Below are positions 4,901 through 57,191 of a stretch of DNA of 64,000 nucleotides, in pieces (position 1 is the stretch's first letter; every line of letters begins with the position of its first letter). A program made the position numbers and the translations under genes. The notes under the pieces were generated by a model. The model did no database searches, was not told where the DNA came from, and saw only the letters and a program-made list of their open reading frames with translations. Source of the stretch: Actinomycetospora termitidis (GTDB taxonomy: Bacteria; Actinomycetota; Actinomycetes; Mycobacteriales; Pseudonocardiaceae); contig NZ_JASVWF010000007.1 in the NCBI RefSeq assembly GCF_030286555.1, positions 124,001 to 188,000 on the forward strand, read 5' to 3'.

Positions 4901-4973
4901 TCCTCCTTAGCTCAATCGGCAGAGCATGCGACTGTTAATCGCAGGGTTACTGGTTCGAGTCCAGTAGGAGGAG
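4901..4973 (+). tRNA. tRNA-Asn(GTT)
   Basis: The cloverleaf closes by eye. The acceptor stem is TCCTCCT/AGGAGGA. The D arm is GCTC/GAGC. The anticodon stem TGCGA/TCGCA has loop CTGTTAA, with anticodon GTT at 4934-4936. The T arm ACTGG/CCAGT has loop TTCGAGT. The discriminator base is G. CCA is not encoded. This is the host gene that appears to serve as the prophage attachment locus. Confidence 0.96.
4950..4973. other. Inferred prophage attachment site (attL) in the tRNA-Asn 3' end
   Basis: The integrase gene stops 66 bases from the tRNA, and all genes beyond it are phage-like. Actinobacterial tyrosine integrases commonly recombine into the 3' half of tRNA genes, restoring the tRNA with an identical core. 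The second copy of the core is not in the window, so the exact limits cannot be set from this sequence. Confidence 0.4.
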
Positions 4974-4979
4974 CATCAC

Positions 4980-5038: not shown

Positions 5039-6259
5039 TTAGCTCGGGAACGGGCCCGTCTCGCCGACCACCCGCAGGTGTCCGCGATCGTCGTCGCCGA
5101 GCAGCGCGTCGATCGCCGCCGTCGCCTCCGCCGAATCCGCCCGACGCTTCATGTAGTGCTGCTGGGTGATCTCGGTTCGCGAATGCCCCAACCGGTCTGA
5201 CACCTCGCGAGGAGTGAGCCGGGCCGCGTCCAGCGTCGAGGCCACCGTCTTCCGGAACACGTGCGGGGTCACCCACTCGTAGCCGGCCTCGTTCAGCGCG
5301 TGCCGCATCCACTTGCCGACCGTCGTCGGGTCCAGCGGCCCGTCCCCGCGGGCGTTCGGGAACAGCAGTCCCTCCTGCGCGCCGCCGAGCTGCAGCACCC
5401 GCGAGCGCACCATCCGCACCGCCGCGTTCGGCAGGCCGATCGTGCGGCTGCGCGTCTTCGACCCGTCGCCCTGCGCGCCCTCCCCGCGGATCACCAGCCC
5501 CCTGCCCTTCACCCGGATCACGATCGGTCCGACGTCGGCGGTGCGCGCCGCCAGGTCGATCCGGTCCAGACGTGCGGCGAGCGCGTTCCCGATCCGCTCC
5601 GAGGTCGCCAGCATCCACAGCACGATGTCCGGCAGTTCCCGGTCTCGGGCGTACTGCGACTTCGCCAGCTCGAGCAGCAGGTGCGCCACCTGGTCGCGGT
5701 CGAGCGCCTTCGGGTCGGCGCGGCGGGCACCACGGAGCCGGTCGATCGACGGCATCGGGTTGTGCGTCAGCGCTTCCGCCTTCACTGCGGCCTTCGCCAC
5801 GGATCCAATGACCTGGCGGGCCAGCTTCGCGTTGTCACGTGACCGGGCGGCGATCTCGGCGAGCGCGGTGTCGATGCGGGCGGCGGTGAGCTCGCCGGCC
5901 TGCAGGTCCCCGACGCGGGGCTCGAGGTGGTTGCGCCACACAGACCGGTAGGTGCGGGCGGTGTTCGGAGAGAGCAGGTCGTCGTCGGCGTCCCGGTCGA
6001 CGCCGGCGAGCCACTGCTCGGCCAGCGTGCGGACGCGGACGGTGCGTGCGGCCGGGTCGGTGCCGTCGCCGAGCTTCTCCAGCTTGGCCTGCAGCGCTCG
6101 ACGGGCGGCCGTCTTCGACGCGCCGAACGCTTCGGGGCGGGTGACCTTGCCGGTGCGGCGGTGCCGGTAGGAGCAGCGGGCGCGCCACGTCCCGTCCGGC
6201 TTCTCGGTGACAGTGATGTCGGAGTGGGCGCCGAGGTCGAGCGCCAGACGTCCGGGCAC
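5039..6259 (-). CDS. int: Prophage tyrosine-type site-specific integrase
   Basis: A 406-residue tyrosine recombinase that would catalyse phage integration at the neighbouring tRNA-Asn. The N-terminal 60 residues look like an arm-binding domain (TWRARCSYRHRRTGKV). A core-binding helical domain follows. The catalytic domain shows the first Arg in ATSERIGNALAARL, the H-x-x-R box in PHVFRKTVAST, GHSRTEITQQH, and the nucleophile Tyr in QQHYMKRR. It starts at GTG 6259 with a GGGAGG ribosome site. The gene lies next to attL and reads toward it, the usual arrangement in actinophages. Confidence 0.95.
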   Translation of the reverse strand: MPGRLALDLGAHSDITVTEKPDGTWRARCSYRHRRTGKVTRPEAFGASKTAARRALQAKLEKLGDGTDPAARTVRVRTLAEQWLAGVDRDADDDLLSPNTARTYRSVWRNHLEPRVGDLQAGELTAARIDTALAEIAARSRDNAKLARQVIGSVAKAAVKAEALTHNPMPSIDRLRGARRADPKALDRDQVAHLLLELAKSQYARDRELPDIVLWMLATSERIGNALAARLDRIDLAARTADVGPIVIRVKGRGLVIRGEGAQGDGSKTRSRTIGLPNAAVRMVRSRVLQLGGAQEGLLFPNARGDGPLDPTTVGKWMRHALNEAGYEWVTPHVFRKTVASTLDAARLTPREVSDRLGHSRTEITQQHYMKRRADSAEATAAIDALLGDDDRGHLRVVGETGPFPS

Positions 6260-36018: not shown

Positions 36019-37376
36019 GGTGCCTCCGGGGGAAGTGCGACGACGTAGAGCACCCGCTGAGTGCCCCGGCGCTCTTCGGACTGCACGAGGTAGCGGGTGC
36101 CGTGACCCAGAATCAGCTCGTCCTCGTCGGCCTTGAACGTGACCCCGGTGCCACGGACGACGATCGCCGGAGTTCCGGCGGGCACGGTGATGTTCAGCAG
36201 GATGGACGCGGTGCTGAACTCGTCAGCCGCGGTGCCGAGGTTCGTCGACTGGTAGCCCGCGCCGACGAACACGTCGCCTGGCGACAGGTCGTCGGGCACG
36301 TTGCTGCTGACGCCCCGGGCCACCTGCACGTTCGCCGGCACCGAGTACGCCGCCAGGAGGCTGTCCAGGTTCCGGATGTCGTCCTCGGCCCACTCGTTGA
36401 CCCACGACGCCCCGAAGCGCAGCCGATCGTTGATACCGACGTAGGTGCCGCCCACGTAGTCGGACAGCGAACTCCGCTGCTCGTAGGTCGAGGTCACGTT
36501 CTCGCGGTAGTGCTCGACGAGCTCGGCCGGCGTGTAGCTCCTCTTCGGCTTCACGACGGACGCGGAGGAGGGCTCTCCGGCGATGCCGCGGTGCAGGGTG
36601 GTGCCCGAGTTCGCGGCCTCGGCGCGGAAGCGCTGCTGGTCGACGACCACGGGCTCTCTGGTCCATCGCTGACGGCGCAGCAAGATCCGCATCACCTCGT
36701 CGTCCTCTGCCGTCGAGTGATGCGCTCGGTTCAGCTCGGCGGCGGTGTCGACCCACTCGCGCAGCGTCGTCCGCTGCGGTGCGATCGGCGCGGGGAGCGG
36801 GCCGTCGCCCTCGCGGCGGACGTCGCGGCTTTGAGTCGACTTTGGCGTGGACGACAGTCCGTCACTGCTCGCAAAGCCCTGGCCTCGCTGCTGGTCACGC
36901 AACGTGCCACGCTCGGTGCCCCGACGGGCCTCCCGCTCGCGGCGCCTACGCTCCCGCTCCTCGCGTCGGCGCCGCTCGACGTCTTGCTGCACTTCGCGGC
37001 GACGCTTGCGGCGCTCGGTGCGCGACGGCCTGCGTTGCTCGGGCGGCTCCTCACGGGCCCGCTCTTCGGCCTGCACCTCGGCCTGCTCTGCGCCGTGCGG
37101 CTCCACGTCCCCAGGGACCACCAGCACGACCAAGGTCCGACAGTGATCATGGAACGGCGGGTCCATCTGCGGGCCGATGAGGGTGTCGAACTCCTCGTCC
37201 ATCCCGACGATCGGGTTGTCGGCGGCGAGAGCCAGGCAGATGTCGGAGGTGCGGTTGTCGATGACGTGGATGAGGCCGCGCTTGAGCTCGCGGATGGTGA
37301 ACCGCCCGGAAGCCATCGTCTCCTGCGCGCGCTTCTCGGCCCTCTCGAAGGCGAGCGACTGCCCGGGGGTGCTCAC
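36015..37376 (-). CDS. MuF-type minor capsid protein fused to an ADP-ribosyltransferase toxin domain
   Basis: A 453-residue protein from GTG 37376. Residues about 1-95 are the C-terminal part of a MuF domain (VIDNRTSDICLAL, PPFHDHCRTLV). A highly charged helix follows (about 110-175, Arg/Glu runs). The C-terminal 150 residues form an ART exoenzyme domain: R354 in QVARGVSS, STN at 377-379 in AGYQSTNLG, and E418/E420 in ADEDELILG. This R-ST[S/N]-ExE triad marks Arg-directed ADP-ribosyltransferases. MuF fusions of this kind are known polymorphic toxins carried in temperate phage heads. It would be packaged and injected with the DNA. Confidence 0.85.
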   Translation of the reverse strand: MSTPGQSLAFERAEKRAQETMASGRFTIRELKRGLIHVIDNRTSDICLALAADNPIVGMDEEFDTLIGPQMDPPFHDHCRTLVVLVVPGDVEPHGAEQAEVQAEERAREEPPEQRRPSRTERRKRRREVQQDVERRRREERERRRREREARRGTERGTLRDQQRGQGFASSDGLSSTPKSTQSRDVRREGDGPLPAPIAPQRTTLREWVDTAAELNRAHHSTAEDDEVMRILLRRQRWTREPVVVDQQRFRAEAANSGTTLHRGIAGEPSSASVVKPKRSYTPAELVEHYRENVTSTYEQRSSLSDYVGGTYVGINDRLRFGASWVNEWAEDDIRNLDSLLAAYSVPANVQVARGVSSNVPDDLSPGDVFVGAGYQSTNLGTAADEFSTASILLNITVPAGTPAIVVRGTGVTFKADEDELILGHGTRYLVQSEERRGTQRVLYVVALPPEAP

Positions 37377-41894: not shown

Positions 41895-42085
41895 CAGTGC
41901 TCGCCCTCCGGGGTGACGAAGCCGCGGTAGCTGTAGGCAACGCCGTCCTCGTCGAGCACGTACTCCACGGAGCGCGCGTCGGCGTCCAAGCACGCGACGA
42001 CGGTCGGGAGACGGCCGGACGGGTCGAGCTCCACGTCGACCGAGCCCTCGTCGTGCGGGCCGCCGTGCAGCGGGACCGTCGGCAT
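41894..42085 (-). CDS. 63-aa hypothetical protein
   Basis: From ATG 42085 overlapping the TerL nuclease stop (TGATG). A GTG one codon upstream is also possible. Beta-rich (SVDVELDPSGRLPTVVACL, VEYVLDEDGVAYSYRGFV). Not recognised. Confidence 0.5.
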   Translation of the reverse strand: MPTVPLHGGPHDEGSVDVELDPSGRLPTVVACLDADARSVEYVLDEDGVAYSYRGFVTPEGEH

Positions 42086-43050
42086 CACTCACGCCCCTGC
42101 TGCAGCCCGGTGGCGATCTCCCCGACCTGGCCGAGCATCAGTCGCATCCCCCACCAGCAGTGCCAGAACGCCATCACGCAGTCGTCGTGCTCTCCGGAGC
42201 CCTGCAGCTTCCCGTCCTCCCAGCCGAACGCCTCGAACTCGGCAAGGAGGGTCTCGACGTCGTCGAAGCCACGGCCGTCGCGGCGGTACGGGAACGACCA
42301 CCTGCGGTTCGTGAAGTCGACGATCATCCCCGGGACACCGGACTGCAGGTCGCGTTTCTGCCCGGCCGCGTGGTGCGACATGACCGGGACCGTGGTGCCC
42401 TCCTGCAGCGACTGCCGGTACACGATCTGCATGGCGTCGCCCTCGATCACATCCAAGTCAGTGGAGTAGCGGTGGTGGTGCTGCTCGACGAGCGCGACCT
42501 GCTGCGGGTACGACATCCGCTGGTGGCGTTCGATGTCGATGACCCGGTGCGGCTGGCGGCCCATCCGGTCCCCGACCGCGGTCACCTTCACCAGGTAGTC
42601 GCCGCCGACCTTCTCCGACCACGCCATGTCCCACCCGGACACGACCACGAACCGGTCCCCGTCGTACTCGGGCTTGCGGTAGTGCGGCAGGCACTCCAGG
42701 CCCACCTCGAGCATCGGGGCCATGAGTTCGCGGGGGAACAGCGACGACTCCGACGAGCGGGGCGACGTCTGAATCTCGCGGTCGAACAGCAGCGGCCCGA
42801 TCTCGCCGCGCTTCGCGTTCAGGCAGCGGGTGTTCTCCGGGCAGGTGGCGCACGGCAGCTCGCGACGCACCTGCGGCTGCAAGGCGGGAGGGGCGGCCTC
42901 CACGGTGTCGATGCACGTCTGCAGAGCGATCGCCGGCCAGCGGGCCGACCACAGGCTGTGCCGCACGTTGACGGGCTCGGAGGGCGCGCGGGTGTCGGCC
43001 TGCGGGTCGTCGGCGGGCCCGACGACGGTGCGGCCGAGCACGGCGGTCAC
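42085..43050 (-). CDS. Terminase large subunit, nuclease half
   Basis: A 321-residue protein from GTG 43050. It shows the RNase H-like nuclease layout of TerL: first acidic residue in RFVVVSGWDMAWSEKVGGDY, ending with VDFTNRRWSFPY and ...DCVMAFWHCWW, where the last Asp is catalytic. It also holds a Cys cluster (CATCPENTRCLN). The ATPase half is the separate gene at 43226. Together they should cut and package the genome. The split by a 60-aa gene is unusual. Confidence 0.82.
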   Translation of the reverse strand: MTAVLGRTVVGPADDPQADTRAPSEPVNVRHSLWSARWPAIALQTCIDTVEAAPPALQPQVRRELPCATCPENTRCLNAKRGEIGPLLFDREIQTSPRSSESSLFPRELMAPMLEVGLECLPHYRKPEYDGDRFVVVSGWDMAWSEKVGGDYLVKVTAVGDRMGRQPHRVIDIERHQRMSYPQQVALVEQHHHRYSTDLDVIEGDAMQIVYRQSLQEGTTVPVMSHHAAGQKRDLQSGVPGMIVDFTNRRWSFPYRRDGRGFDDVETLLAEFEAFGWEDGKLQGSGEHDDCVMAFWHCWWGMRLMLGQVGEIATGLQQGRE

Positions 43051-43229
43051 GTGAGCGCTCCGAGGTGCGTGGAGCGGGCGACGACCTCGCCTTGGTGCGC
43101 GATGAGGAACGGCATCAGCTCGTCGGGTCGGGTCGTGCAGGGGAACGGTGTGTACTCCCACAGCACGTGGTCGGCTTCGGCGTCGGTGAGGCCGGGGACC
43201 ACGCTGTGCACCAGCTCGATGAACGTCAT
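43047..43229 (-). CDS. 60-aa protein between the two terminase halves
   Basis: From ATG 43229, overlapping both terminase genes by four bases. Helical, with LVHSVVPGLTDAEADHVLW and ELMPFLIAHQGEVVARS. It may be a spacer, a linker subunit of a three-part terminase, or an unrelated insertion. No homing-endonuclease or intein motif. Confidence 0.6.
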   Translation of the reverse strand: MTFIELVHSVVPGLTDAEADHVLWEYTPFPCTTRPDELMPFLIAHQGEVVARSTHLGALT

Positions 43230-43996
43230 GCGATCTCGACCGCCCAGGTGCCGCCGACGCGCTCGGCGGGCGCGCACTCCGCGGAGTACCGACGGAAGTG
43301 GTAGCGCGAGTTGTCCCGCATGGACATCAGCAGGTCGGACGCGTGGAACGGCGTGCCGACGAGGTGGATCACGGTGGCCGGCATCGTGACCATGGCCGTG
43401 GTGCCCCACATCCGCGCGGGCCGGGTGGTGCCCGGGTGGGCCATGTTGGCGACCGTGCCGAACCACCAGCGGGCCGTCTTGCGGCGCTGGTGCTCGGTGG
43501 CGGTGCCCTCGTCATCGAGCACGTCATCACCGATGATCACGTCGGGGTGCGCGGATCGGACCCGCTTCCCGGCGCCGGCCACGGTGATCCGGGCGCCGTT
43601 CGCCAGGACGAGGTCGTCAGCCCGGTCGACTTCGGCGCCGTCGACGAGCTCGGGGGCCACGGCTTCGATGGCGGTGCGCACGCGCGCGAGCAAGCCCTTG
43701 GCCTGATCAAGGGTCTGCGAGAAGCCGTAGGTCCACAGGCCGGGCGTGTAGACGGACCGCCAGGTGGTGGCGTTCTCGAAGAACGTGGCCGTCTTGGCGT
43801 GCTCCCGCGGCGCGACGACGGCGAGGCGGCGCTCGGTCTGGGCAAGATCGCACCACTCGTAGTGGAACGGGGCCATCGTGTAGCCCAGCTTGTGCTCGGC
43901 GAACGTGGCGAGGTCGGCGGCGCAGGCCAGCTCGAGGAGCTCGTCGGTGTCGACGTCGCCGAGCAGGCCGAGGTCCAGATCGGGGGTGAGGGTCAC
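43226..43996 (-). CDS. Terminase large subunit, ATPase half
   Basis: A 256-residue protein from GTG 43996. Walker A-like VVAPREHAKTATFF (the P-R-x-H-x-K-T form found in actinophage terminases), adenine-binding APFHYEWCDL, Walker B VIIGDDVLDDE and the coupling TTAMVTMPATVIHLVGTPFH. The motor would dock at the portal and drive packaging with the nuclease protein. It ends where full-length TerL would continue, confirming a genuine split. Confidence 0.85.
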   Translation of the reverse strand: MTLTPDLDLGLLGDVDTDELLELACAADLATFAEHKLGYTMAPFHYEWCDLAQTERRLAVVAPREHAKTATFFENATTWRSVYTPGLWTYGFSQTLDQAKGLLARVRTAIEAVAPELVDGAEVDRADDLVLANGARITVAGAGKRVRSAHPDVIIGDDVLDDEGTATEHQRRKTARWWFGTVANMAHPGTTRPARMWGTTAMVTMPATVIHLVGTPFHASDLLMSMRDNSRYHFRRYSAECAPAERVGGTWAVEIA

Positions 43997-44088
43997 CAGG
44001 GCCACCACCCGAGGCCGGCGAGGACCGCGCAGGCGAGGATGAGGCAGCAAGCGCCGCGGAGCAGGACGTCGCGGGGGGCGGGGGTCAT
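43993..44088 (-). CDS. 31-aa single-helix membrane peptide
   Basis: ATG 44088, stop overlapping the TerL ATPase start (GTGA). Short basic N-terminus then GACCLILACAVLAGLGWW. Overlap at both ends supports translation. Function unknown. Confidence 0.45.
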   Translation of the reverse strand: MTPAPRDVLLRGACCLILACAVLAGLGWWPW

Positions 44089-45816: not shown

Positions 45817-46449
45817 CTACTGGATACGTCCCGAGTCGCCGTCCGAGGCTTCGATCACCTGGTGCTGCTTGCGGCGGGCCAGGATCGGCGCCAGCACCCG
45901 TGCCACCTGCCGCGCTTCCGAGTCGTCCAGGTCCAGCAGCGCCGCCAGCGACCGGCCGGCGCCCGGGGCCACGTCCGGATCGCCCTGCGTCGGCGGGTTC
46001 ACCTCCTCGAGCGGGGCGTGTTTCGCGCCGGACAGGTCGGCGATCCGGTCCACCAACTGCATCGCCCGGTCCGTCGCCCACATGTCGACGCCCTTCTCCC
46101 GCGGCGCCCCGTGCTGGTCGAGGCCCATCGCACCCGGCCACACCTTGGCGAGCAGCCGCTCGTAGCGGGCGAGGGCTTCGCGGCGGTACTCGGCGGCCGA
46201 CTGCATGGGCATGTGCTCGAGCAGGCGCTTGACCGCGACGTAGGCGGCCTTGGCGTCGTAGTAGCCGCAATCGGGGTGTTCGGCGACGTCGGCCCAGGTC
46301 AGGCCCCGCGTCTTGAGGTCGAGGGCGCGTCGGGCGCGGAGCTGGTCGCGGTAGCGGGCGGCGGTGGTGTTGACCTCGCGGACGAGCTCGTCGGACGGGC
46401 CGTGTGGTCCGTCTTCGGATGGTTCGTGCTGCTCGTCGGGGTTTGCCAC
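45817..46449 (-). CDS. Terminase small subunit candidate
   Basis: A 210-residue protein from GTG 46449. An N-terminal HTH segment (LDLKTRGLTWADVAEHP, then YYDAKAAYVAVKRLLE) is followed by a helical oligomerisation region (AEYRREALARYERLLAKVW, DRAMQLVDRIADLSG). This matches small-terminase-like proteins of actinophages, and it is the first gene of the leftward virion operon. It should recognise the packaging site. The terminase large genes are 2 kb away. Confidence 0.68.
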   Translation of the reverse strand: MANPDEQHEPSEDGPHGPSDELVREVNTTAARYRDQLRARRALDLKTRGLTWADVAEHPDCGYYDAKAAYVAVKRLLEHMPMQSAAEYRREALARYERLLAKVWPGAMGLDQHGAPREKGVDMWATDRAMQLVDRIADLSGAKHAPLEEVNPPTQGDPDVAPGAGRSLAALLDLDDSEARQVARVLAPILARRKQHQVIEASDGDSGRIQ

Positions 46450-46588: not shown

Positions 46589-47092
46589 ATGACCGTCACC
46601 GACGGGCTCTGGCTCACCACGACCGAGGACCCCGCCGTCGACGCAGCTGTCCGGACCTTCGCAACGACTGCGCAGTGCGTCCGCCTCGGAGACGTGCTGC
46701 CTCAGGTTGGCACCGTGACCGAGATACAGCGCTTCGGCGGCCAGCTCTACATCGAGGGCACCCGCAACATGGTCGTGAAGATGCCCAACAGCCCCGTCAC
46801 TGTGACCCGCGCGCTCACCTCGCCTCAGGCTGCCACACTCGAGGAGCAGGGCCAGGAGCTCGCGGAGCTGCGGGCGCAGGTGGAGGGCCGGCCGATCGCG
46901 GCTGCGGTGGTGGAGGACGACGGCCGGGTGCGGCTGGTCGACGAGCGGGCGCGGACGGTGCGCGAGTTCGTGGCGCTGTACGGCTCGGAGTCGGTGGACG
47001 CGGCGCTGCTGGCGTGCGGGTTCCGGCGCACCGAGGAGTGGGCCGTGAACAAGCTGGGCTGTCCGGTGGCGCGGATCGCGTCCGTGCGCTGA
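46589..47092 (+). CDS. First gene of the rightward operon, unknown function
   Basis: A 167-residue protein from ATG 46589 with a TGGAGG ribosome site. The N-terminus is beta-rich (DGLWLTTTEDPAVDAAVR, EIQRFGGQLYIEG). A coiled-coil segment follows (EEQGQELAELRAQVEG), then a C-terminal helical domain (TVREFVALYGSESVDAALL). It is divergent from the virion operon and next to an operator-like site, so it may be a regulator. No known DNA-binding motif is clear. Confidence 0.6.
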   Translation: MTVTDGLWLTTTEDPAVDAAVRTFATTAQCVRLGDVLPQVGTVTEIQRFGGQLYIEGTRNMVVKMPNSPVTVTRALTSPQAATLEEQGQELAELRAQVEGRPIAAAVVEDDGRVRLVDERARTVREFVALYGSESVDAALLACGFRRTEEWAVNKLGCPVARIASVR

Positions 47093-47181
47093 GCAGCCAG
47101 CAGTAGTGCGGCGACTGACGACGTCGTTGGACCATGGAGCCACCCGGCGATGGTCGCCGGGGTCGATGAAGGAGAGCAGCG

Positions 47182-47319
47182 ATGGGCTGGAGCACGCGGA
47201 CTCGCGAGGGCGACAAGCCGGCGAACGTGGCGCGGCGGTCGCGGGAGTCCCGCGAGGCGCACGGCGCGCACTGCCGGTGCGTGACCTGCAAGAACGAGCC
47301 GATGCCGGGTCGGCGATGA
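47182..47319 (+). CDS. 45-aa Cys-containing basic protein
   Basis: ATG 47182 with an AAGGAGA site. Arg-rich (ANVARRSRESREAHG) with HCRCVTCKNEP, a likely zinc knuckle. Its stop overlaps the next start (ATGA). Confidence 0.6.
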   Translation: MGWSTRTREGDKPANVARRSRESREAHGAHCRCVTCKNEPMPGRR

Positions 47320-47510
47320 CCGTCGAGGTGGCGGTCGCGGCGTCCGACGTGGCGTGCTGGGCGTACCCGTCGGTGGACGGGGACGAGCCGTTCCTGCGCT
47401 TCGCGTGCCTGATCTGGGCGATGCAGCGGGCGCTTGACCAGGCGCGGGAGGACTACCCGGAGGTCGGGCCGTGCATGAGCTGGGGCGCAGGGATGCGCTA
47501 CGGGCTGTGA
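47316..47510 (+). CDS. 64-aa hypothetical protein
   Basis: ATG 47316 overlapping the previous stop (ATGA). Mixed sequence (CWAYPSVDGDEPFLRFACL, WAMQRALDQAREDYPEVG). It is coupled to the HTH gene by GTGA. Not recognised. Confidence 0.55.
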   Translation: MTVEVAVAASDVACWAYPSVDGDEPFLRFACLIWAMQRALDQAREDYPEVGPCMSWGAGMRYGL

Positions 47511-47686
47511 GCAGGCAACCGGCGCGGCTGCTGTCGGCGGCCGAGGTGGCGGCGTGGCTCGACGTGGACGTGTCGACGCTGCGCCGCTGGAGGGCCGCCG
47601 CGCGCGGTCCGAAGTGGTCCCGGGTGGGCCGGGACGTCAGGTACGCGAGGGAGGACGTGAAGAAGTGGCTGGAGACGAGCAGGTGA
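47507..47686 (+). CDS. MerR/excisionase-type HTH protein
   Basis: A 59-residue protein from GTG 47507. It is a complete HTH_17 domain: LLSAAEVAAWLDVDVSTLRR, WRAAARGPKWSRVGRDVRYA, then VKKWLETS. Such proteins act as excisionases or small regulators. As the prophage needs an Xis, this is the best candidate in the window although it is 41 kb from the integrase. Confidence 0.78.
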   Translation: MSRQPARLLSAAEVAAWLDVDVSTLRRWRAAARGPKWSRVGRDVRYAREDVKKWLETSR

Positions 47687-47693
47687 GCAAGCG

Positions 47694-47927
47694 ATGACAC
47701 TGGCGATGGGCCGCGAGGAGCGGAAGCTGCTGTCGCCGACCGCGACCGGGCCATACGGCGCCGTGTGGCGCTCGGACCCGCCCGAGGTCTGGGAAGTCAC
47801 CCTCACGCACGAGGGTGTGGATCACTGGACGCAGATCGAGCCGCTGCCCGGCCCGCAGGCCGTGGCGATGGGGCAGGCGATGCTGGCGGCCGGGTGCCGC
47901 GACCTGGACGACGGGGAGCAGGGGTGA
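47694..47927 (+). CDS. 77-aa hypothetical protein
   Basis: ATG 47694. Contains ATGPYGAVWRSDPPEVWEV and an acidic end (GCRDLDDGEQG). The stop overlaps the next start (GTGA). Not recognised. Confidence 0.55.
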   Translation: MTLAMGREERKLLSPTATGPYGAVWRSDPPEVWEVTLTHEGVDHWTQIEPLPGPQAVAMGQAMLAAGCRDLDDGEQG

Positions 47928-48124
47928 GCACGCGAGCGACGGCCGCCGCGCTGCTGCCTGTGGCGGTTGTGGTGCTGTTCGTCGCGGCAGGTGCAGGCGT
48001 GCTCGGCGTGTTCTACCCGATGATCGGGTGGGCGCTGGTCGCCCTGTTCGTCGGCGGCGGCGTGACCGCGCTCGTGCTGGGGGAGCGGGACCGTCGTCGG
48101 GCGCGTCGAGGCGGTGAGCGGTGA
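47924..48124 (+). CDS. 66-aa membrane protein with two helices
   Basis: GTG 47924. Two hydrophobic segments (LLPVAVVVLFVAAGAGVLG and IGWALVALFVGGGVTALVL) and a basic tail (ERDRRRARRGGER). It resembles the small membrane Spd-type proteins that accompany transfer ATPases in actinomycete mobile elements. Confidence 0.6.
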   Translation: MSTRATAAALLPVAVVVLFVAAGAGVLGVFYPMIGWALVALFVGGGVTALVLGERDRRRARRGGER

Positions 48125-48378
48125 TGGGCTGGCTGAGCAACGCGCCCGTCGCGCGGGGCGCCCGGAGCGCGGGCGTGAGTTCCATCCCGATCTCGAAGCT
48201 GTACGGGTCGCACTCGCCCGACGAACACCGGGTGAAGCCGTGGCGCGGGTCGTGCCCGCCGATCACCGTGGAGCGCAACGGTCGGCGCTATCGGCTCGTC
48301 GACGGGGCGTCGCGGGTGGAATCCGCTCGACGGGCCGGTGCGCGCACCATCCGCGCCGAGGTCTGGGAAACGGCGTGA
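48124..48378 (+). CDS. ParB/sulfiredoxin-like domain protein
   Basis: An 84-residue protein from ATG 48124 (TGATG). SIPISKLYGSHSPDEHRVKP is followed by PPITVERNGRRYRLVDGASR and VESARRAGARTIRAEVWETA. This is the ParB N-terminal fold pattern: a variable [I/V]xV strand, a nucleotide-contacting DGxxR and xxxAxxxG-x-xxIxAxV. It has no HTH, so it is a ParB-like nuclease or nucleotide-binding fragment. Confidence 0.68.
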   Translation: MGWLSNAPVARGARSAGVSSIPISKLYGSHSPDEHRVKPWRGSCPPITVERNGRRYRLVDGASRVESARRAGARTIRAEVWETA

Positions 48379-48662
48379 GCCGCGACCCGGACGGCGTCAG
48401 CCACCACGAGATGGTCCACGCGCGGGCGTGCCGCGGGGAGCGGCTGCCCGTTAAGTGGGTGCGGCGCGGCCGGGAGCTCGTGGTCGAGTCTCACGTGCCG
48501 TGGGGCCGGAAGGGCAAGGCCCGCGCGGCGGTTGCCCTCATGGCCGGAGGGCTCGCCGGCGGAGGCGATGGCGCCGGAGACATCCATGCAGCCGAGGGCC
48601 TGGCCCGGGAAGCGGGCGTCGACGTCGCCGAGATCAGGCGTCGGGCCAAGCGGTACCTGTAG
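48375..48662 (+). CDS. 95-aa basic hypothetical protein
   Basis: GTG 48375 (GTGA). Starts SRDPDGVSHHEMVHARACRG, then a basic stretch (VPWGRKGKARAAVALMAGG). C-terminal EAGVDVAEIRRRAKRYL is helical. Not recognised. Confidence 0.55.
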   Translation: MSRDPDGVSHHEMVHARACRGERLPVKWVRRGRELVVESHVPWGRKGKARAAVALMAGGLAGGGDGAGDIHAAEGLAREAGVDVAEIRRRAKRYL

Positions 48663-48671
48663 CGGTACTCC

Positions 48672-48717
48672 ACTCCGGTACCGGTCCCGCGAGCTGTGTG
48701 ACGACCGGTACCGGAGT
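48672..48717. repeat. 15-bp perfect inverted repeat around GGTACC
   Basis: ACTCCGGTACCGGTC (48672-48686) and GACCGGTACCGGAGT (48703-48717) flank a 16-base loop and are followed 8 bases later by TTTT. It can fold as a terminator/attenuator, or serve as a two-site operator, since each arm contains the palindrome CCGGTACCGG. Confidence 0.65.
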
Positions 48718-48727
48718 CCCGTACCTT

Positions 48728-48757
48728 TTCAGATATGGAAAGCCACACGGCTACTCT
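48728..48757 (+). promoter_or_regulatory. Candidate promoter for the HTH gene
   Basis: TTCAGA, 18-base spacer, TACTCT. The start would be at or near GTG 48766, giving a leaderless transcript. Confidence 0.35.
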
Positions 48758-48765
48758 CCCGCGCC

Positions 48766-49038
48766 GTGACGAGCCGGGAGGAGCAGAGCGCCTTGACCGG
48801 CCTATCGGCGCTGCTGGCGCGCGACCTGACGACGGCGGACCGCGAGGAACTGATCGCGGGAGTACGGCAGTCCGAGCTGGTACTGGACGAGGCCCCGGTC
48901 TGGACGGGCCGACTGCTGGAGGCCCTGCACGACACGGGGATGTCGTGGCCGGAGATCGAGCGGGCCACTCAGCTGCCGGTCGGGACGGCGTACCGACGGT
49001 TCAAGCAGTACCGCGAGGGGCGCGACGCGGCTGGCTGA
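48766..49038 (+). CDS. HTH DNA-binding protein
   Basis: A 90-residue protein from GTG 48766. The first part is acidic and helical (LLARDLTTADREELIAGVR). A helix-turn-helix near the C-terminus reads MSWPEIERATQLPVGTAYRR followed by FKQYREG. It resembles the small regulators that precede transfer genes in actinomycete mobile elements, and could be the operon's own repressor. A TTG further on is an alternative start. Confidence 0.62.
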   Translation: MTSREEQSALTGLSALLARDLTTADREELIAGVRQSELVLDEAPVWTGRLLEALHDTGMSWPEIERATQLPVGTAYRRFKQYREGRDAAG

Positions 49039-49685
49039 CCGTCGCCCTCGGGGCGGTCCTGCTCGGGGCGTTCGTCGTCTCGGCGTCGTCGACCTGGCAG
49101 CTCGGAGAGCGCCACCACCTCGGTGACCTGGCCCGGGTCGCGCTGATCGCGATGCTCGAGGTCGGGTCGATCACCGGGGCGTCGCTGTACGTCTCCACCC
49201 GCGACCGCCGTACCCGGGTGCGGGCGGGCCTGCTCGTGGCCATCGCCACCGGGGTGGCCGCGACCGGCGGGGTGCAGGCGTACGGCTTCCTGATCGGCCT
49301 GTCGGTCGCCGCGGTCCTGCTGCTGATGGTCGAGGTGATCTCGCGGTACTGGCACGAGACGGGACCGGTACCCGCGGAGCAGCCGCAGGCGCCCAGCGAG
49401 GAGCCGCCGACACCGGTCCAGGTGCCTGCCGAGCGGCCCGCGCTGGTGTCGCTGCCCGGTACCGGGACCGACGACACCACGCCGGTCCCGGTACCGAAGT
49501 CGACGACCGGTCCCGCCCGCGCTCGGGCGACGAAGGCGAAGCACTCGGACGAGGTCGTGGTGGCGTGGCTGCGTGAGCAGCTCGCCGACCCGCAGGCGAA
49601 GGACCCGACCGTGGACGCGGTCGTGGAGAGGTTCTCGACGGGGCGCACCCGAGCGGTGCGGCTGTGCCAGGAGGCGAAGGCGTGA
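49035..49685 (+). CDS. Membrane protein with C-terminal DNA-binding-like domain (SpdB/DUF2637-like)
   Basis: A 216-residue protein. No ATG, GTG or TTG lies near its N-terminus. A CTG at 49035 overlapping the HTH stop (CTGA) gives the coupling seen throughout this phage. Otherwise an internal GTG of the HTH gene would be used. Four helices span about residues 3-110 (VALGAVLLGAFVVS; ARVALIAMLEVGSITGASLY; RAGLLVAIATGVAATGG; FLIGLSVAAVLLLMVEVI). A Pro/Thr linker leads to a compact helical domain (SDEVVVAWLREQLADPQAK, VVERFSTGRTRAVRLC). The architecture resembles the DUF2637/SpdB proteins next to conjugal FtsK-like genes. Confidence 0.65.
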   Translation: MTVALGAVLLGAFVVSASSTWQLGERHHLGDLARVALIAMLEVGSITGASLYVSTRDRRTRVRAGLLVAIATGVAATGGVQAYGFLIGLSVAAVLLLMVEVISRYWHETGPVPAEQPQAPSEEPPTPVQVPAERPALVSLPGTGTDDTTPVPVPKSTTGPARARATKAKHSDEVVVAWLREQLADPQAKDPTVDAVVERFSTGRTRAVRLCQEAKA

Positions 49686-50143
49686 TGACCAGCAAGACGA
49701 TGTGGGTGGGCGGCGTCAAGGTCACGGCGTCGAAAGCGGGCGGCACTCTCGGTGCGGCGCTTGTCGCCGGCGTGCTGGTGGTGGCCGCGCTCGCCCTGGT
49801 CACGCGGCTGCTCGGGTCGACAGCGATGGGGTTCGCCGCCGCGAACGCTGCGGTGTCGTCGGCGATCGGGCTGGTCGGCGCGGTCGGGGCGATCGTGCTG
49901 ATCGTGGCCGCGGTCGCGACCGCCGTCGGGTGGGTCGTGACCGCCCCGAGGCGGGCCCGGGAAGCGGCCCGGTGCGCGGAGTTCCGCCGCACCCAGCAGC
50001 AGTCCCGCGCCACCACCGCGGTCCGGGACCGGACCCGCACCGAGCAGGTCCCCGGGCGGCCTGCGCAGGCACTGCCGGCCGGTCAACCGGTGCGGGTGGA
50101 GGCGGTGCGCCTCAACGAGCTCGACCGGGTCCGCGAGCGGTGA
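49685..50143 (+). CDS. Membrane protein with two helices
   Basis: A 152-residue protein from ATG 49685 (TGATG; a GTG one codon earlier is possible). Two hydrophobic segments (LGAALVAGVLVVAALALVT, AIGLVGAVGAIVLIVAAVAT) and a long basic cytosolic tail (RAREAARCAEFRRTQQQSR). Likely a partner of the transfer ATPase. Role inferred. Confidence 0.6.
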   Translation: MTSKTMWVGGVKVTASKAGGTLGAALVAGVLVVAALALVTRLLGSTAMGFAAANAAVSSAIGLVGAVGAIVLIVAAVATAVGWVVTAPRRAREAARCAEFRRTQQQSRATTAVRDRTRTEQVPGRPAQALPAGQPVRVEAVRLNELDRVRER

Positions 50144-50601
50144 GCACGCGGCGGCGCCCGCGTCCCCCGACAGGGGAACGAGAGGGCATGTGGCGGAAGT
50201 TCGGGCGGCGCTCGGCGAAGGTCGGGAAGTTCGGCTGGAAGCACCGCAAGCGGGTGTTCGGGCTGGTCGCCGCGTTCGCGTTCGTCTACGTCGCCGTGTA
50301 CTTCGCCTACGTCGGGACGGTGTCACTGGTGCAGGTGCTGGTGCTGGTGACGGCGTTGGTCGGGGCTGGGCTGGCGAAGCACCACGAGAACATGGCGTTC
50401 CGCCGGCACATGGCCGACCACCAGCCGCAGCCGTCGTGGCGGGAACGCCGCGAGTGGGCACGCGGTCACGGCCACCGGGCACCGCACCGCACCCCGGAGC
50501 CCGCGCCCGGCACGATCTATGTGCGCTCGCACCGACGGGACGGTGACGGGGTCGAGGCCTACACCCGCGCCGCCCCCGGTCGAGGTGAGGAGGCGTCGTG
50601 A
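50140..50601 (+). CDS. Membrane protein with basic flanks
   Basis: A 153-residue protein from GTG 50140 (GTGA; ATG 50188 with a good ribosome site is an alternative). Basic N-terminus (WRKFGRRSAKVGKFGWKHRK), two hydrophobic segments (VFGLVAAFAFVYVAVYFAYV, VSLVQVLVLVTALVGAGLA) and a His/Arg/Pro-rich tail. It is coupled to the FtsK-type gene by GTGA. Confidence 0.6.
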   Translation: MSTRRRPRPPTGEREGMWRKFGRRSAKVGKFGWKHRKRVFGLVAAFAFVYVAVYFAYVGTVSLVQVLVLVTALVGAGLAKHHENMAFRRHMADHQPQPSWRERREWARGHGHRAPHRTPEPAPGTIYVRSHRRDGDGVEAYTRAAPGRGEEAS

Positions 50602-52679
50602 GTGCGCCCGACGAGCAGCAGCAGCGGCCGGTGTCGACGGCGCTGGTCAAGGTCGGCAGCAAGGCGCTGGAGAAGGTGTCCGATGCGCCCGGGGCGGCCG
50701 TGGTGAAGGTCGTCGACGAGGTGCAGCGGTCTTACGTCGGGGTGATCGCGTTTGCTGCGGACCTGCGGGCGTGGCGGACCGTTGCCGTGCGCCGCGCCGA
50801 GTACTACGAGGCGAAGCGCCGCGCCGACGCCGGGGCGGGCAAGCACCCCAGTCCGAGCGACCTCACGAAGATCGAGCAGGACCAGGCGAAGCGGACCCTC
50901 AAGCTGGCCGCGGCGGTCGCCGGTACTGCGGTACTGCTGTTCGCCCTGTCGGTGTCGCAGTACCAGTGGGACCCGTGGCTGTACCTCGCCGGCGGGGTCC
51001 CGGTGGTCCTGCTTATCGCGGGCCGGTACTACCGGGCGCGGTGGGTGACCGCGCTGGCGCCCGTCTCCGGTCCCGTGCTGCTCGCGCTCGGTATCGAGGG
51101 CCTGCGGTGGTGGCCGTCGGTGATCGCGGCGGTACTGGTCGCCCTGGCCTGCGAGTACCGCGGCAGTCTCGTCGCGCCGCCCGCGCCCGCTGGTCCTGGT
51201 ACCGATAAGGCCCGTCCGGGGGTGTCGCTGCCGAAGCTCTGGGAGACAGTTCGGCTGCGACTGCTCCAGGAGCGCATCACAGCGCGCCATCAGCACACCC
51301 GCCTGCTCGTCGTCGATGGCGTCGAGGTCGGTGCAGCGTTTGGGCTCACGACCCACGAGCCGATGACCGACAAGGCGGTGGCGGCAGTGGCCCGTGAAGT
51401 CCACGTCGGGCAACGGTGGGTCCGCTACGTTCACCCGGCCGACGAGCCGGTCGGCGAGCTGCTCGTCTACTGGCAGAACCCGCTCGAGAACACGCCCCCG
51501 CCACCCCAACGGCGATTCGGGGACCTGCGCTACGGGCGCCCGTTCTCGGTGGGCAGAAACGACGTCGGCGCCCTCGACGAGCTCGTGCTGGCCTACACGC
51601 TCTTCCTCGTGTTCGGACATTCCGGGTCCGGCAAGTCGTCGGTGGTTCGGCTGATGATCGATGCCACGGAGGAGATGCCCGATGCCGATCTGTACGGCAT
51701 CGACACCATCGGGGCGTCGCTGCTCGGTGCTCAGCAGAAGCGGCTCGGGCGCGGGCGGGTGGCGTGCGGGCCGGAGCAGCTCGAGGAGGCGCAGGCCATC
51801 CTCGATCACCTGCTCAGCGAGGCTCGCCGCCGATCGATGGCGCTCGCTGCGGGCGAGGACTACGACGAGGACGGGGCGGTCGACGATCGCTTCCTGGTCG
51901 ACGACTGCGACGGTCGCCGCGGGATCGTGCTCGTGATCGGTGAGTACGCGAACTTCTGCCAGTTCGAGTTCTTGGTGACCCGCCTGCTCGATCTCGCGAT
52001 GGTGGCCCGCAAGCACGCGATCACGATCATCGTGGAGTCGCCGACGCTAGCGAAAAGCCAGCTTGGCGACGGCCGCGCCTACCTGGCACAGGCGATGGTG
52101 AAGATCGCGATGGCGTGTTCTAACCACGACGTTGTGCAGGGGCTGGGGGAGTCGCTGCTCGACCAGGGGTGGCGTCCCGACAAGCTGCAGCCGGAGTCCG
52201 AGGGGCGACGCAACGACGCCGGCATCGGCTACGTCTACGGGTCGGGTCGCAACCAGCCGCGACTGACCGGGTTTCATCCGATGGATCCGGATGAAGCCGC
52301 CGAACGACGGCGGGCGCGGCGGATCGACCGGAACGCCTGGTACGTGGGCCGTACACCGCCCGTATCTACCTCCATGCGAGAGGTGAACCCGCTTGACGCG
52401 GTGGAGGTGCCCGAGCCGCTGGCGACGCTGGCAGGGCTGGCGGAGGAAGGCGACGTGCACACTGCGGCGCTCCTCGAGGCCCTGCCGGACGGCTGGACGG
52501 CACGGGGCGTCGCGGACGCGCTACGGCCGCACGGGGTCCCTGTGGGCAACGTCGTGCGTGGTGGCGTCCAGCGCAAAGGATATCGCCGTGACCAGGTGGT
52601 TTCCGCCGTCCAGGCCCTGGATGACGTGCCGTCCACGGACGGACGGGGACGGATCGTGAAGAGCGAGAGGACGGTGTGA
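50598..52679 (+). CDS. FtsK/SpoIIIE-type DNA translocase (TraB/TraSA-like)
   Basis: A 693-residue protein from GTG 50598. Two to three N-terminal membrane helices (about residues 107-205; VAGTAVLLFALSVS, AGGVPVVLLIAGRYY) anchor it. The ATPase core has Walker A GHSGSGKSSVV (about 341-351), Walker B IVLVIGEYANF (about 441-451), a conserved TIIVESPTLAK segment, and a C-terminal helical domain (AALLEALPDGWTARGVADAL) like a DNA-recognition winged helix. In actinomycete integrative elements such proteins move double-stranded DNA between cells. In a phage it could also act in DNA partition. Confidence 0.88.
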   Translation: MSAPDEQQQRPVSTALVKVGSKALEKVSDAPGAAVVKVVDEVQRSYVGVIAFAADLRAWRTVAVRRAEYYEAKRRADAGAGKHPSPSDLTKIEQDQAKRTLKLAAAVAGTAVLLFALSVSQYQWDPWLYLAGGVPVVLLIAGRYYRARWVTALAPVSGPVLLALGIEGLRWWPSVIAAVLVALACEYRGSLVAPPAPAGPGTDKARPGVSLPKLWETVRLRLLQERITARHQHTRLLVVDGVEVGAAFGLTTHEPMTDKAVAAVAREVHVGQRWVRYVHPADEPVGELLVYWQNPLENTPPPPQRRFGDLRYGRPFSVGRNDVGALDELVLAYTLFLVFGHSGSGKSSVVRLMIDATEEMPDADLYGIDTIGASLLGAQQKRLGRGRVACGPEQLEEAQAILDHLLSEARRRSMALAAGEDYDEDGAVDDRFLVDDCDGRRGIVLVIGEYANFCQFEFLVTRLLDLAMVARKHAITIIVESPTLAKSQLGDGRAYLAQAMVKIAMACSNHDVVQGLGESLLDQGWRPDKLQPESEGRRNDAGIGYVYGSGRNQPRLTGFHPMDPDEAAERRRARRIDRNAWYVGRTPPVSTSMREVNPLDAVEVPEPLATLAGLAEEGDVHTAALLEALPDGWTARGVADALRPHGVPVGNVVRGGVQRKGYRRDQVVSAVQALDDVPSTDGRGRIVKSERTV

Positions 52680-52852
52680 TGGACGGCGATGTGGACGCCG
52701 CGGTCGCGGAGGCGTTCGAGGACGGCTGGAATCAGGGCTTCACCGCGGCCGGCGGGGGCTGTTCGTGCCCGCACCGCGACGGCTGCCCCGCGGGCGGCCA
52801 GGACGAAGCGCCGTCGTGGTGGCGCCGATGGCTGGATGCGGTGACGTCGTGA
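52679..52852 (+). CDS. 57-aa protein with Cys/His pair
   Basis: ATG 52679 (TGATG with the FtsK-type gene), stop overlapping the next start (GTGA). It contains FEDGWNQGFTAAGGGCSCPH and RDGCPAGG (possible zinc site), then PSWWRRWLDAV. Function unknown. Confidence 0.6.
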   Translation: MDGDVDAAVAEAFEDGWNQGFTAAGGGCSCPHRDGCPAGGQDEAPSWWRRWLDAVTS

Positions 52853-53358
52853 GCCCGCTCGGATGGGTGATGCTGATCGCGCTCGTGCTGGCGTTCCTGG
52901 CCGGGGCCTATCTCGGGGTGCGCTACGGTGCCGCGCTGCCCGGCAGCGGCCCCGTCGTGCCCGCGCAGCGGCGCCCTGCGGCCCGCGACGGGGGTACACA
53001 GGTCGATCTCACCGACCGACAGACCGCGGTCTACCTGTTCTTCGGCCTCTACCAAGGCCGCCGGGACGTGCTGCTGTACGTGGGGATCGCGGCGAACCCG
53101 CGCAAGCGGGCGGAGCAGCACGCCGAGTCGAAGGCCTGGTGGGGCGACGTCGACGACGTGGAGGCGTGGTGGCTCGGGAACCGCCACGTGGCGTGCGGGG
53201 TGGAGTGGGCGCTGATCCGCTACCTGCGACCGGTCTACAACACGGCCCCGGGCGGCCAGGACGACGCGTACTCGCGCGACCTGCCACCGATCGAGCCGGC
53301 TCGATTTCGGCTTCCGTCGCGCACCACAGCGCGGGTCCGGAGCGCACTGATCCGCTGA
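52849..53358 (+). CDS. Membrane-anchored GIY-YIG nuclease
   Basis: A 169-residue protein from GTG 52849. One N-terminal membrane helix (VMLIALVLAFLAGAYLGV), then a GIY-YIG domain: AVYLFFGLY, VLLYVGIAANPRKRAEQH, WWGDVDDVEAWW, and the metal-binding Glu in GVEWALIRYLRPVYN. Similar GIY-YIG proteins occur beside transfer genes in actinomycete elements, where they may nick or protect DNA. Last gene of the rightward operon, followed by a strong terminator. Confidence 0.85.
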   Translation: MSPLGWVMLIALVLAFLAGAYLGVRYGAALPGSGPVVPAQRRPAARDGGTQVDLTDRQTAVYLFFGLYQGRRDVLLYVGIAANPRKRAEQHAESKAWWGDVDDVEAWWLGNRHVACGVEWALIRYLRPVYNTAPGGQDDAYSRDLPPIEPARFRLPSRTTARVRSALIR

Positions 53359-53363
53359 GACGA

Positions 53364-53398
53364 CGAAGGCCCGGCACCTACTCGGTGCCGGGCCTTCG
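53364..53398. terminator. Bidirectional terminator between convergent operons
   Basis: A perfect 15-bp stem (CGAAGGCCCGGCACC / GGTGCCGGGCCTTCG) with a TACTC loop, between the rightward operon end at 53358 and the leftward operon end at 53411. Confidence 0.85.
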
Positions 53399-53410
53399 TG
53401 CTGCTCGAGG

Positions 53411-53494
53411 TCAGCGCTTCTTGCTCTTCTTGCCGCGGTTCGCCTTGAGGCGGCGGTCCGCCGATGTGCCCTTCGAGGGGCGGCCCTTGGCCAT
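53411..53494 (-). CDS. 27-aa basic peptide gene
   Basis: ATG 53494 to TGA 53411; MAKGRPSKGTSADRRLKANR then lysine-rich. Very basic, so possibly nucleic-acid binding. Supported by composition and position between two terminators. It is short, so confidence is limited. Confidence 0.4.
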   Translation of the reverse strand: MAKGRPSKGTSADRRLKANRGKKSKKR

Positions 53495-54022: not shown

Positions 54023-54532
54023 TCACGGCCTGTGGGGCATCGTGGTCCGGTACCGGTCTCCGTGTTCGTCGAGGTGGTACCAGCCGTCCCGGTACCGGAC
54101 CGGCACGGTGAGCGGGTCGGCACCATGCGGCAGCGACCAGCCGTACTCCCGCGCTTTGCCATTCTTCTCGGTGTGCGCGCGGCCGTGGCAACCGGCGGCA
54201 TTCCCAGGACCGCAGAGGCTGATCGCGTTCTGCACGACGTCGAGGAGCTTCGACCCGCCCGCGCCCTTGAACACGCGGTGGTGCGCGTCGAGCGGGACAC
54301 CGTTGCGACCGCATCCGAGGCACGCCCACCCGTCGCGGACGTGGGCGAGCTGCTTCACCTGCGCCCAGGTGGCCAGCTGGAGGCGCTGTGCCGCCCGCTG
54401 CGGCGTCGGCCGCCGCTCGCTGGGCGGGGAGGCTCGGGGGAGTGGCACGGAGCGCGCCAGGCCCGATTCTCGGGCGAGGTCGGTGTGGGCGGTCAGCGGC
54501 TTGGTCCTCTTCGGCGGGCCGCTGCGCTTCAT
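54023..54532 (-). CDS. HNH endonuclease
   Basis: A 169-residue protein from ATG 54532 (ATGA). Basic Pro-rich N-terminus, then [20 protein letters not shown] with [13 protein letters not shown] and [19 protein letters not shown]. These give the two CxxC-type zinc pairs and the HH...N...H active site of HNH nucleases. It lies in the early operon, so a recombination or DNA-processing role is more likely than packaging. Confidence 0.85.
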
Positions 54533-56245: not shown

Positions 56246-56718
56246 GCGGTCTCCTCGAACAGATCGATCTGGACGTAGCGCTCGACCAGGGGCGGCCACC
56301 AGCCGCGACGTGCCGCCTCGAGCGCGCTGGACGCGGCGCAGTAGCGGCCAAACCACTCCTCGTGCTCGGCGATCCGTTCCGCCGTCGGCTTCGGCCAGAG
56401 CGGGTACCGGCGGCCCTCGACTGAGGTCTCGACGTACGCGCGGTAGGCCGATTGGAGTCGGGCCGAGCCGTCGTCGGTGCGCGCCTGCGCGGCCAGCTTC
56501 ACCAGCGCCTTGACCGGCACGAGGCCTTGACCGTGCCCCGGGTGCCGGTACTCGACCTTGCCGGCGTCGATGCACCACCGGACGCCGTTGGCCTGCAGTG
56601 ACCCGGCGGCAGAAGCAGTCAGTGCCGAGCGCGCTTGCTCCGGATCGCCGTGGGCGATCGACAGTAGGTGCACCGCCCCGACGACCTCCCGGGCTAGCCA
56701 CTGCTCGACGCCGGTCAC
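56242..56718 (-). CDS. Hypothetical protein of the early operon
   Basis: A 158-residue protein from GTG 56718 (GTGA). Alpha-helical N-terminus (VEQWLAREVVGAVHLLSIAH), then ANGVRWCIDAGKVEYRHPG, and an aromatic C-terminus (RRGWWPPLVERYVQIDLF). No family recognised. Confidence 0.6.
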   Translation of the reverse strand: MTGVEQWLAREVVGAVHLLSIAHGDPEQARSALTASAAGSLQANGVRWCIDAGKVEYRHPGHGQGLVPVKALVKLAAQARTDDGSARLQSAYRAYVETSVEGRRYPLWPKPTAERIAEHEEWFGRYCAASSALEAARRGWWPPLVERYVQIDLFEETA

Positions 56719-57191
56719 GCCGGTACCGCCGACGAGAGCTTCCGACGCGCCTGGGCAGCAGTGAGGCCAGCAGCCCGGCCCGCTGCGTACTTGGCGCGCT
56801 GCGCCTGGCGATCGCACTCAGCGCAGTAGCGCTTGCCGTTGGGGCGGACGCGGACGTTGCGCGGCACCGTCCAGTCGTGTCCGGCACGACGACAGGAGGT
56901 CTGCCGCTCGCGGATACGCCGCTGGTTCTCGGCGTGGGTGACCGGCTCGAGGTGGCCGGGATAGACGCACAGGGGCGTGACGCAGAGGTGGTCCAGCTCG
57001 GGTGTCTTGTCCGGGATCGGCCCCACGAGCAGCTTCCACGTGACGCGGTAGGCGGGCTGGTCGCGCCCGTCGTGGCGCACGTAGGGATACCCGGCGTCGT
57101 TCACCCAGCCGCCAGTCCACAGCCAGTGCCCATCGGCAACGGTGATCTTCTCGACCAGCCGGGCGGGGAGGTCGGTCACGGTGAAGCTCAC
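56715..57191 (-). CDS. HNH_3-type homing endonuclease-like protein
   Basis: A 158-residue protein from GTG 57191. It shows the HNH_3 pattern HWLWTGGWVNDAGYP, AYRVTWKLLVGPIP, LDHLCVTPLCVYPGHLEPVT and THAENQRR. A C-terminal Cys pair (RYCAECDRQAQRA) resembles a zinc ribbon. Proteins of this type are often free-standing homing nucleases in phages. Confidence 0.85.
   Translation of the reverse strand: MSFTVTDLPARLVEKITVADGHWLWTGGWVNDAGYPYVRHDGRDQPAYRVTWKLLVGPIPDKTPELDHLCVTPLCVYPGHLEPVTHAENQRRIRERQTSCRRAGHDWTVPRNVRVRPNGKRYCAECDRQAQRAKYAAGRAAGLTAAQARRKLSSAVPA

Follow-up and report, generated by a model that had tools for sequence, protein, structure and literature searches.

The window analysed here comprises 64,000 nucleotides of the actinomycete Actinomycetospora termitidis (contig NZ_JASVWF010000007.1, positions 124,001 to 188,000, forward strand) and covers an integrated tailed prophage of 65.4 kb up to its right end, which lies beyond the window, in a host genome of 6.56 Mb. 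The virion genes of the prophage (terminase, portal, capsid, tape measure) run leftward, as does its replication module (DnaB, sliding clamp, helicase/methylase); between the terminase end and this module lies a cassette in the opposite orientation to both (46589-53358), in which an earlier sequence-only reading had seen a conjugation-style module. We examined this cassette and its relatives in other genomes, phages and viral contigs, and the sequence comparisons support the presence of a conjugation-type module in the prophage. As first described, the cassette is a single rightward operon: it consists of 15 open reading frames (ORFs), all on the plus strand and without a single in-frame stop. 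Eleven of the 14 ORF junctions are overlaps, ten of 4 bp and one of 1 bp; gaps of 89, 7 and 103 bp make up the remaining three. With a GC content of 0.720, the operon matches the rest of the prophage (0.717), and composition therefore gives no sign of recent arrival.

The product of the ATPase gene o13 (50598..52679) is a TraB-type, FtsK/SpoIIIE-like translocase with a membrane N-terminal part, a RecA-like motor (residues ~255-585) and a C-terminal winged helix (~605-675). A transmembrane (TM) helix is predicted at residue 99, and the N-terminal part is helical in a low-confidence model. The winged helix aligns with that of relatives, including those from AICE-like elements (AICE, actinomycete integrative and conjugative element), and appears in the model as HHH-EE-H with a predicted local distance difference test (pLDDT) score of about 80. 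Searches of the PDB by sequence and by fold point to FtsK motors, the conjugation protein TcpA and EccC/EssC, together with, among the fold matches and at lower Z, HerA-type defence motors. The FtsK/SpoIIIE assignment is thus backed by structural matches and by the clade described below, but not by the Pfam profile PF01580, which o13 matches below threshold (16.1 bits, cut-off 24). The motor had also been credited with intact Walker A and B motifs; this holds for Walker A (GHSGSGKSS), whereas the Walker B stretch is VLVIGEY in o13 and contains DEY or DEF in relatives. Because the Walker B aspartate is replaced by glycine, the activity of o13 is in doubt: judging from the motif, the enzyme may be slow, may need a partner or may be decaying.

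In phylogenetic trees, o13 groups with FtsK-like proteins encoded by plasmids (pFP1 among them), by AICE-like elements and by phages (among them LukeCage); the clade has support of 97/96 in a 25-row tree and 98/93 in a 20-row tree. The label "AICE-like" comes from a by-eye reading of recombinase and GntR-like genes in a few of these relatives, the tree rows named AICE were examined for their upstream neighbour only, and the pFP1 motor is an ORF translated under an unannotated match. A grouping of o13 with housekeeping FtsK, which would have counted against the sequence-only reading, was rejected by the approximately unbiased (AU) test (p 0.007, and p 0.039 in the 20-row tree), and so was a grouping with housekeeping FtsK plus EccC (p 0.025), all three values having been obtained with long branches in play. 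Both housekeeping FtsK and EccC are accordingly disfavoured as identities for o13; another, strong FtsK_SpoIIIE match lies elsewhere in the host genome. By its sequence, o13 belongs with the FtsK-like motors of plasmids and elements and is distinct from housekeeping FtsK. It differs from the plasmid and AICE-like TraB proteins in being phage-borne, in lacking the Walker B aspartate and in its divergence, with less than 30% identity to every aligned or tree row. Among phages, 89 records match o13, at less than 31% identity among the 50 matches listed. A profile search of the protein library added six proteins of 1232-1346 amino acids, of which the sources label two EccC-type and two FtsK/SpoIIIE family.

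Upstream of the motor gene, the four small membrane proteins announced by the sequence-only reading were recovered: o6, o10, o11 and o12 all have predicted TM helices. One of them is o10 (49035..49685), the third gene upstream of o13, which encodes a protein with a Pro-rich linker and a helical C-terminal tail that remotely resembles DUF2637/SpdB proteins. It has three TM helices by the rule used here and four helices in a low-confidence model (pLDDT 49) that is too poor for further use, and its start is uncertain, with CTG at 49035 and a database model of 246 amino acids beginning further upstream. Next come o11 (49685..50143), a multi-TM protein, and o12 (50140..50601), a two-TM protein whose gene shares 4 bp with the start of the ATPase gene.

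To compare o10 with DUF2637 proteins, we used a hidden Markov model (HMM) of 20 sequences, drawn from 24 loci minus L061, L062, L066 and L086 (L066 apparently having been misread). With this model o10 ranked second of 417 (14.4 bits), behind a true DUF2637 protein, but it ranked only seventh (4.9 bits) with an HMM of a seven-sequence subfamily, and the reverse search gave 2.5 bits at best. Profile-profile alignment with hhalign scored 34-37 against the 20-sequence set (probability 48-73%), compared with control maxima of 25.1 and 23.7, and 29-35 against the seven-sequence subfamily (probability 17-58%). These values are suggestive, and we regard o10 as DUF2637-like by architecture and position without counting it as a member. 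Three short-contig proteins are 60-76% identical to o10 over 46-66% of its length, and a scan of viral contigs with the o10 family returned no relative.

When the o10 family was sought in the genomes of the bacterial family, 4 of 390 matched, including the genome itself and one weak match; the weak matches in G133 and G497 were set aside, and the neighbourhoods L214 and L215 looked unrelated by eye. One match lies in another genome of the genus (G006), where an o10 homologue (29% identity, E 3e-9 in a small set) stands directly upstream of a TraB-type gene, both oriented opposite to the virion genes of a tailed prophage, as in the window. This second prophage, of about 57 kb (contig 9, 1815.2-1872.6 kb; loci L222, L219, L218 and L216), splits a host cpaF-type gene of the T2SSE family and encodes a serine integrase, terminase, portal, capsid, tail sheath, tape measure, baseplate and endolysin. 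It differs from the window prophage in its contractile tail, in its serine integrase and in a motor that belongs to another clade and has an intact Walker B. A 10-bp match near the cpaF junction was too short to name as an att core, and inspection by eye revealed no GIY-YIG-like gene among those called in the G006 cassette. With E 1e-10 as the upper limit, the G006 motor had matches in 298 of 386 genomes of the bacterial family, some of which may be to other FtsK-type proteins; at 12 of 30 such loci read (G006 included), either the DUF2637 or the o10 model scored the upstream neighbour at E values up to 0.05. A separate element may possibly be nested inside the G006 prophage.

A third set of comparable loci came from the viral contigs of IMG/VR. 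Profile scans gave six loci, and a query taken from one of these gave nine distinct loci (L202-L210), in several of which a membrane-protein gene in the SpdB position and a TraB-like gene precede terminase, portal or capsid genes. Large terminase subunit (TerL), portal, protease or capsid was matched near the TraB-like gene in five of the nine (L202, L203, L205, L208 and L209), two of these (L202 and L203) being the PHROG-typed contigs that supplied the marker queries. A membrane gene in the SpdB position (one to three TM helices) was matched in seven of the nine, again counting the two query contigs. One TerL family sought in six viral records was found in none, and other TerL families were found in two of the six. 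The SpdB-position proteins gave no score with the DUF2637 HMM, and the two tested against Pfam (from L176 and L191) had no match. Like the window, these loci have a TraB-like motor next to a membrane protein, with terminase, portal or capsid genes close by; they differ from it in that the cassette is co-directional with the virion genes, the motor belongs to a different lineage and Walker B is intact in the five motors read. Their host would be Streptomyces, judging from a homologue in S. coeruleorubidus, and they are possibly a group of phage/AICE hybrids.

Among described systems, the closest precedent is the Streptomyces plasmid-phage pZL12 (phage ZL12, GQ919031). It resembles the window in being a tailed-phage genome with an FtsK-like gene (pZL12.71c, profile match E 2.3e-12), near which a membrane-protein-like gene and a GntR regulator are annotated; no DUF2637 or o10 profile match was found in it. 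Conjugation in combination with a tailed phage genome is therefore known already, and the idea of a hybrid is not new. In contrast to pZL12, a plasmid-type element that has ParA/ParB and whose motor is distant, the window prophage is integrated at a tRNA gene, and it has a divergent motor, a reverse-oriented cassette and a membrane GIY-YIG gene. The Streptomyces plasmid pFP1 carries a DUF2637 gene upstream of a motor of the o13 clade, and transfer experiments have reportedly been made with pFP1/pFP11. Phages of the Stanwilliamsviridae (LukeCage, Yaboi and others) encode an FtsK-like DNA translocase, that of LukeCage falling in the o13 clade; unlike in the window, the annotated genes of the LukeCage stretch that we read all run in one direction and no such cassette is annotated. 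In the open-licence literature searched, we noticed no such cassette in an integrated Pseudonocardiaceae prophage; novelty within that literature lies in an integrated, reverse-oriented cassette that recurs in an unrelated prophage from the same genus, and in the unusual Walker B.

The operon also contains a conspicuous sequence motif. A GGTAC/CGGTAC cluster occupies 48651..51204, with 20 copies of CGGTAC counted on both strands. The motif was picked after inspection of the sequence; among 374 prophage six-mers of similar abundance it is the most clustered, with 20 copies in one 2.66-kb stretch from 48639, against 6 in its own next-best stretch and 16 for the next-best other six-mer. Five operon genes hold 14 copies, against a mean of 6.1 after synonymous shuffling (standard deviation 1.9, maximum 13 in 500). 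The cluster begins at the largest gap of the operon, the 103 bp before o9 (48663..48765), which holds a perfect inverted repeat with 15-bp arms (48672-48686 and 48703-48717) and GGTACC at its core. This repeat may be an operator for o9, a clt-like site or both, and the cluster with its paired inverted repeats is likewise a candidate operator or clt site. A smaller GGTACC cluster lies outside the cassette, in replication genes (54049-54096 and 56403-56727).

The remaining genes of the operon are mostly small. The first, o1 (46589..47092), has no family match in Pfam or PHROG; it is followed by the small ORFs o2 and o3 (47182..47510), to which no function is assigned, and by o4 (47507..47686), an excisionase/MerR-type helix-turn-helix (HTH) protein of the HTH_17 family, confirmed by PF12728 (43.7 bits, cut-off 27). 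Next are o5, with no assigned function, and the 66-residue o6 with two TM helices (together 47694..48124), then o7 (48121..48378), for which a ParB-like domain had been proposed: a ParB-N-like fragment is weakly indicated by PHROG (3.7e-5) but stays below the Pfam cut-off. Past o8 (48375..48662), also without an assignment, o9 (48766..49038) shows the same pattern as a small HTH protein, the second regulator of the sequence-only reading, with a PHROG match (3.3e-4) but a sub-threshold Pfam score. Downstream of the motor gene, the small ORF o14 (52676..52852) precedes o15 (52849..53358), where the membrane-anchored GIY-YIG protein stands confirmed by an N-terminal TM helix and a PHROG match (8.8e-11), though Pfam is sub-threshold. 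Catalytic-type residues are present in an alignment with five relatives; o15 is a putative nuclease, and any role in the cassette is equally putative. A GIY-YIG gene at L206, in the viral-contig group, is 39% identical over 77 amino acids; around GIY-YIG relatives elsewhere (L088 and L089), no TraB-like or DUF2637 match was found. The operon ends at an inverted repeat between converging operons (53363..53399), first described as a 15-bp stem; the perfect repeat is confirmed, but its stem is 16 bp with a 5-nt loop, and the terminator scan did not call it, calling instead a weaker site at 53398-53417 that overlaps the end of the stem. The repeat is probably a bidirectional terminator.

The prophage around the operon is otherwise ordinary. 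It is delimited by a 37-bp direct repeat, with attL (4939..4975, plus strand) at the 3' end of a tRNA-Asn gene and an identical attR at 70310-70346 in window numbering (6310-6346 of L057). A tyrosine integrase (5039..6259, minus strand; PF00589, 66.3 bits) adjoins the att site, as expected of an AICE as well, and PHROG supports terminase (two genes), portal, capsid, a 2187-residue tape measure, sliding clamp and DnaB, so that att repeats, integrase, terminase, portal, capsid and tape measure, the features sought for a tailed prophage, are all present. Arthrobacter phages such as KellEzio and DanielleIgnace have capsid proteins 41-42% identical to that of the prophage, and a viral-contig scan with the latter returned no relative. 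The left border gene of the cassette (45817..46449, minus strand) is read from its position as the terminase small subunit; its best-matching PHROG (645) carries the name RNase E.

Several features of the neighbouring genes were recorded in passing. The terminase large subunit is split into nuclease and ATPase genes (42085-43050 and 43226-44008) with a small gene between them, an arrangement shared with KellEzio and DanielleIgnace. A head-type protein (36015-37376) has a C-terminal part that matches a PHROG of ADP-ribosyltransferases (5.1e-9) and is also matched by Gordonia phages. A glycosyltransferase-like gene (27671-28783) lies amid the virion genes, and in the Arthrobacter relatives an annotated glycosyltransferase is likewise found downstream of the capsid gene. 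In the replication module, a helicase-methyltransferase fusion (57188-59689) shows 59-77% identity in the 80 loci retained from 152 viral-contig stretches; the loci matched in this way were dropped as sibling prophages, the one gene being mainly what they have in common with the prophage.

We read the operon as a transfer module of the AICE/plasmid kind, inserted as a reverse-oriented cassette in an otherwise ordinary integrated tailed prophage, and give this reading a probability of roughly 55%. It rests on the clade and winged helix of o13, the membrane-protein neighbours and the comparable modules in other tailed prophages. A number of observations weigh against it. The Walker B aspartate is present in 60 of 62 aligned proteins, with glutamate in pJV1 TraB and glycine (residue 448) in o13; this alignment includes the window protein, has nine rows covering 24-40% of its columns and was used for Walker counts only. 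The o13 branch is very long (2.15-2.41), and two classical plasmid proteins stand outside its clade: pJV1 TraB, and pIJ101 Tra, which a weakly supported branch unites with host FtsK and EccC. No close relative of o13 was found: among 18 genomes of the genus only its own was found, among 7995 scored candidates in the protein library only o13 itself, and none in the viral contigs queried directly with it. A capsid search in the same 18 genomes found the prophage itself and a 26% partial match, and no close sibling prophage in the genus. Furthermore, o10 has no match to Pfam DUF2637 (PF10935), the clt site is a candidate only, and no AICE-type replication protein (RepSA, RepAM with DUF3631, or Prim-Pol) was found by Pfam among eight prophage proteins, no RepSA profile being used. 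The AICE definition, as set out in a passage of PMC3218068, combines int, Rep or Prim-Pol, and a Tra protein recognized by PF01580, a profile for which o13 stays sub-threshold.

If the module were functional, excision of the prophage would yield circular phage DNA, to which the winged helix of o13 could bind at repeated sites, the GGTAC cluster being a candidate. The motor and its Spd-like partners would then drive double-stranded phage DNA across the membranes, and integration in the recipient would complete the transfer. The outcome would be virion-free spread to neighbouring cells or along the mycelium. The sequence-only reading had allowed for a phage/ICE hybrid (ICE, integrative and conjugative element). 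Its conjugation-type module is supported; that the present-day prophage could move by cell contact is offered as a possibility only, given the missing Walker B aspartate, a DUF2637 link for o10 that is no more than suggestive, and the very long ATPase branch. On a wider scale, tailed temperate actinophages might have repeatedly captured double-stranded DNA conjugation modules from AICEs or plasmids and kept them as a working second route, spreading both by virions and by cell contact. We advance this view tentatively and with more doubt than belief; it would involve at least three motor lineages, those of the window, of the G006-type contractile-tailed prophage and of the Streptomyces-type phage group.

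The most serious competitor, which we nevertheless consider unlikely, is that the captured TraB-type cassette no longer translocates DNA and remains as a relic, or with a regulatory or membrane function. The Asp-to-Gly change in a motor that keeps Walker A and the next glutamate, the long branch and the occurrence of o13 in a single genome of the 18 in the genus all fit such decay or repurposing. Neutral decay is harder to reconcile with 15 of 15 ORFs being open and tightly coupled, the winged helix is retained, and so is the glutamate that follows the aspartate position, which is found in all 62 aligned proteins (Glu449 in o13); pJV1 TraB likewise does without aspartate at that position. A much less probable reading is that the cassette secures the inheritance of the excised or plasmid-state phage in the mycelium by partition or septum clearing. 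FtsK-type motors do clear DNA at septa, o7 is a ParB-like fragment, and a passage in PMC4170104 links spd genes to plasmid stability, but the prophage is integrated at tRNA-Asn and needs no partition while integrated, ten cassette proteins scanned gave no ParA-type match, and the same-clade motor of pFP1 is plasmid-borne beside a DUF2637 gene. Superinfection exclusion, with the nuclease and translocase acting on incoming DNA at the membrane, is improbable as well: reverse orientation is frequent for lysogenic accessory genes, o15 is TM-anchored with catalytic-type residues and HerA-type motors are among the fold matches of o13, but PADLOC gave only weak, partial matches for ten cassette proteins (o9 1.9e-6, o15 3.5e-5, the o13 motor 0.0011) and the G006 cassette showed no GIY-YIG-like gene by eye.

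The reading of the operon as a transfer module bears on how such elements are surveyed. According to a passage in PMC3218068, AICE surveys exclude loci that lack one of int, rep and tra, and they would miss prophages of this kind. The G006 prophage and the viral contigs open the question to comparative testing. If such modules work, the boundary between phages and conjugative elements would be porous in integrated actinomycete prophages, beyond the plasmid-phage pZL12, and the spread of these phages would not be governed by virion receptors alone.

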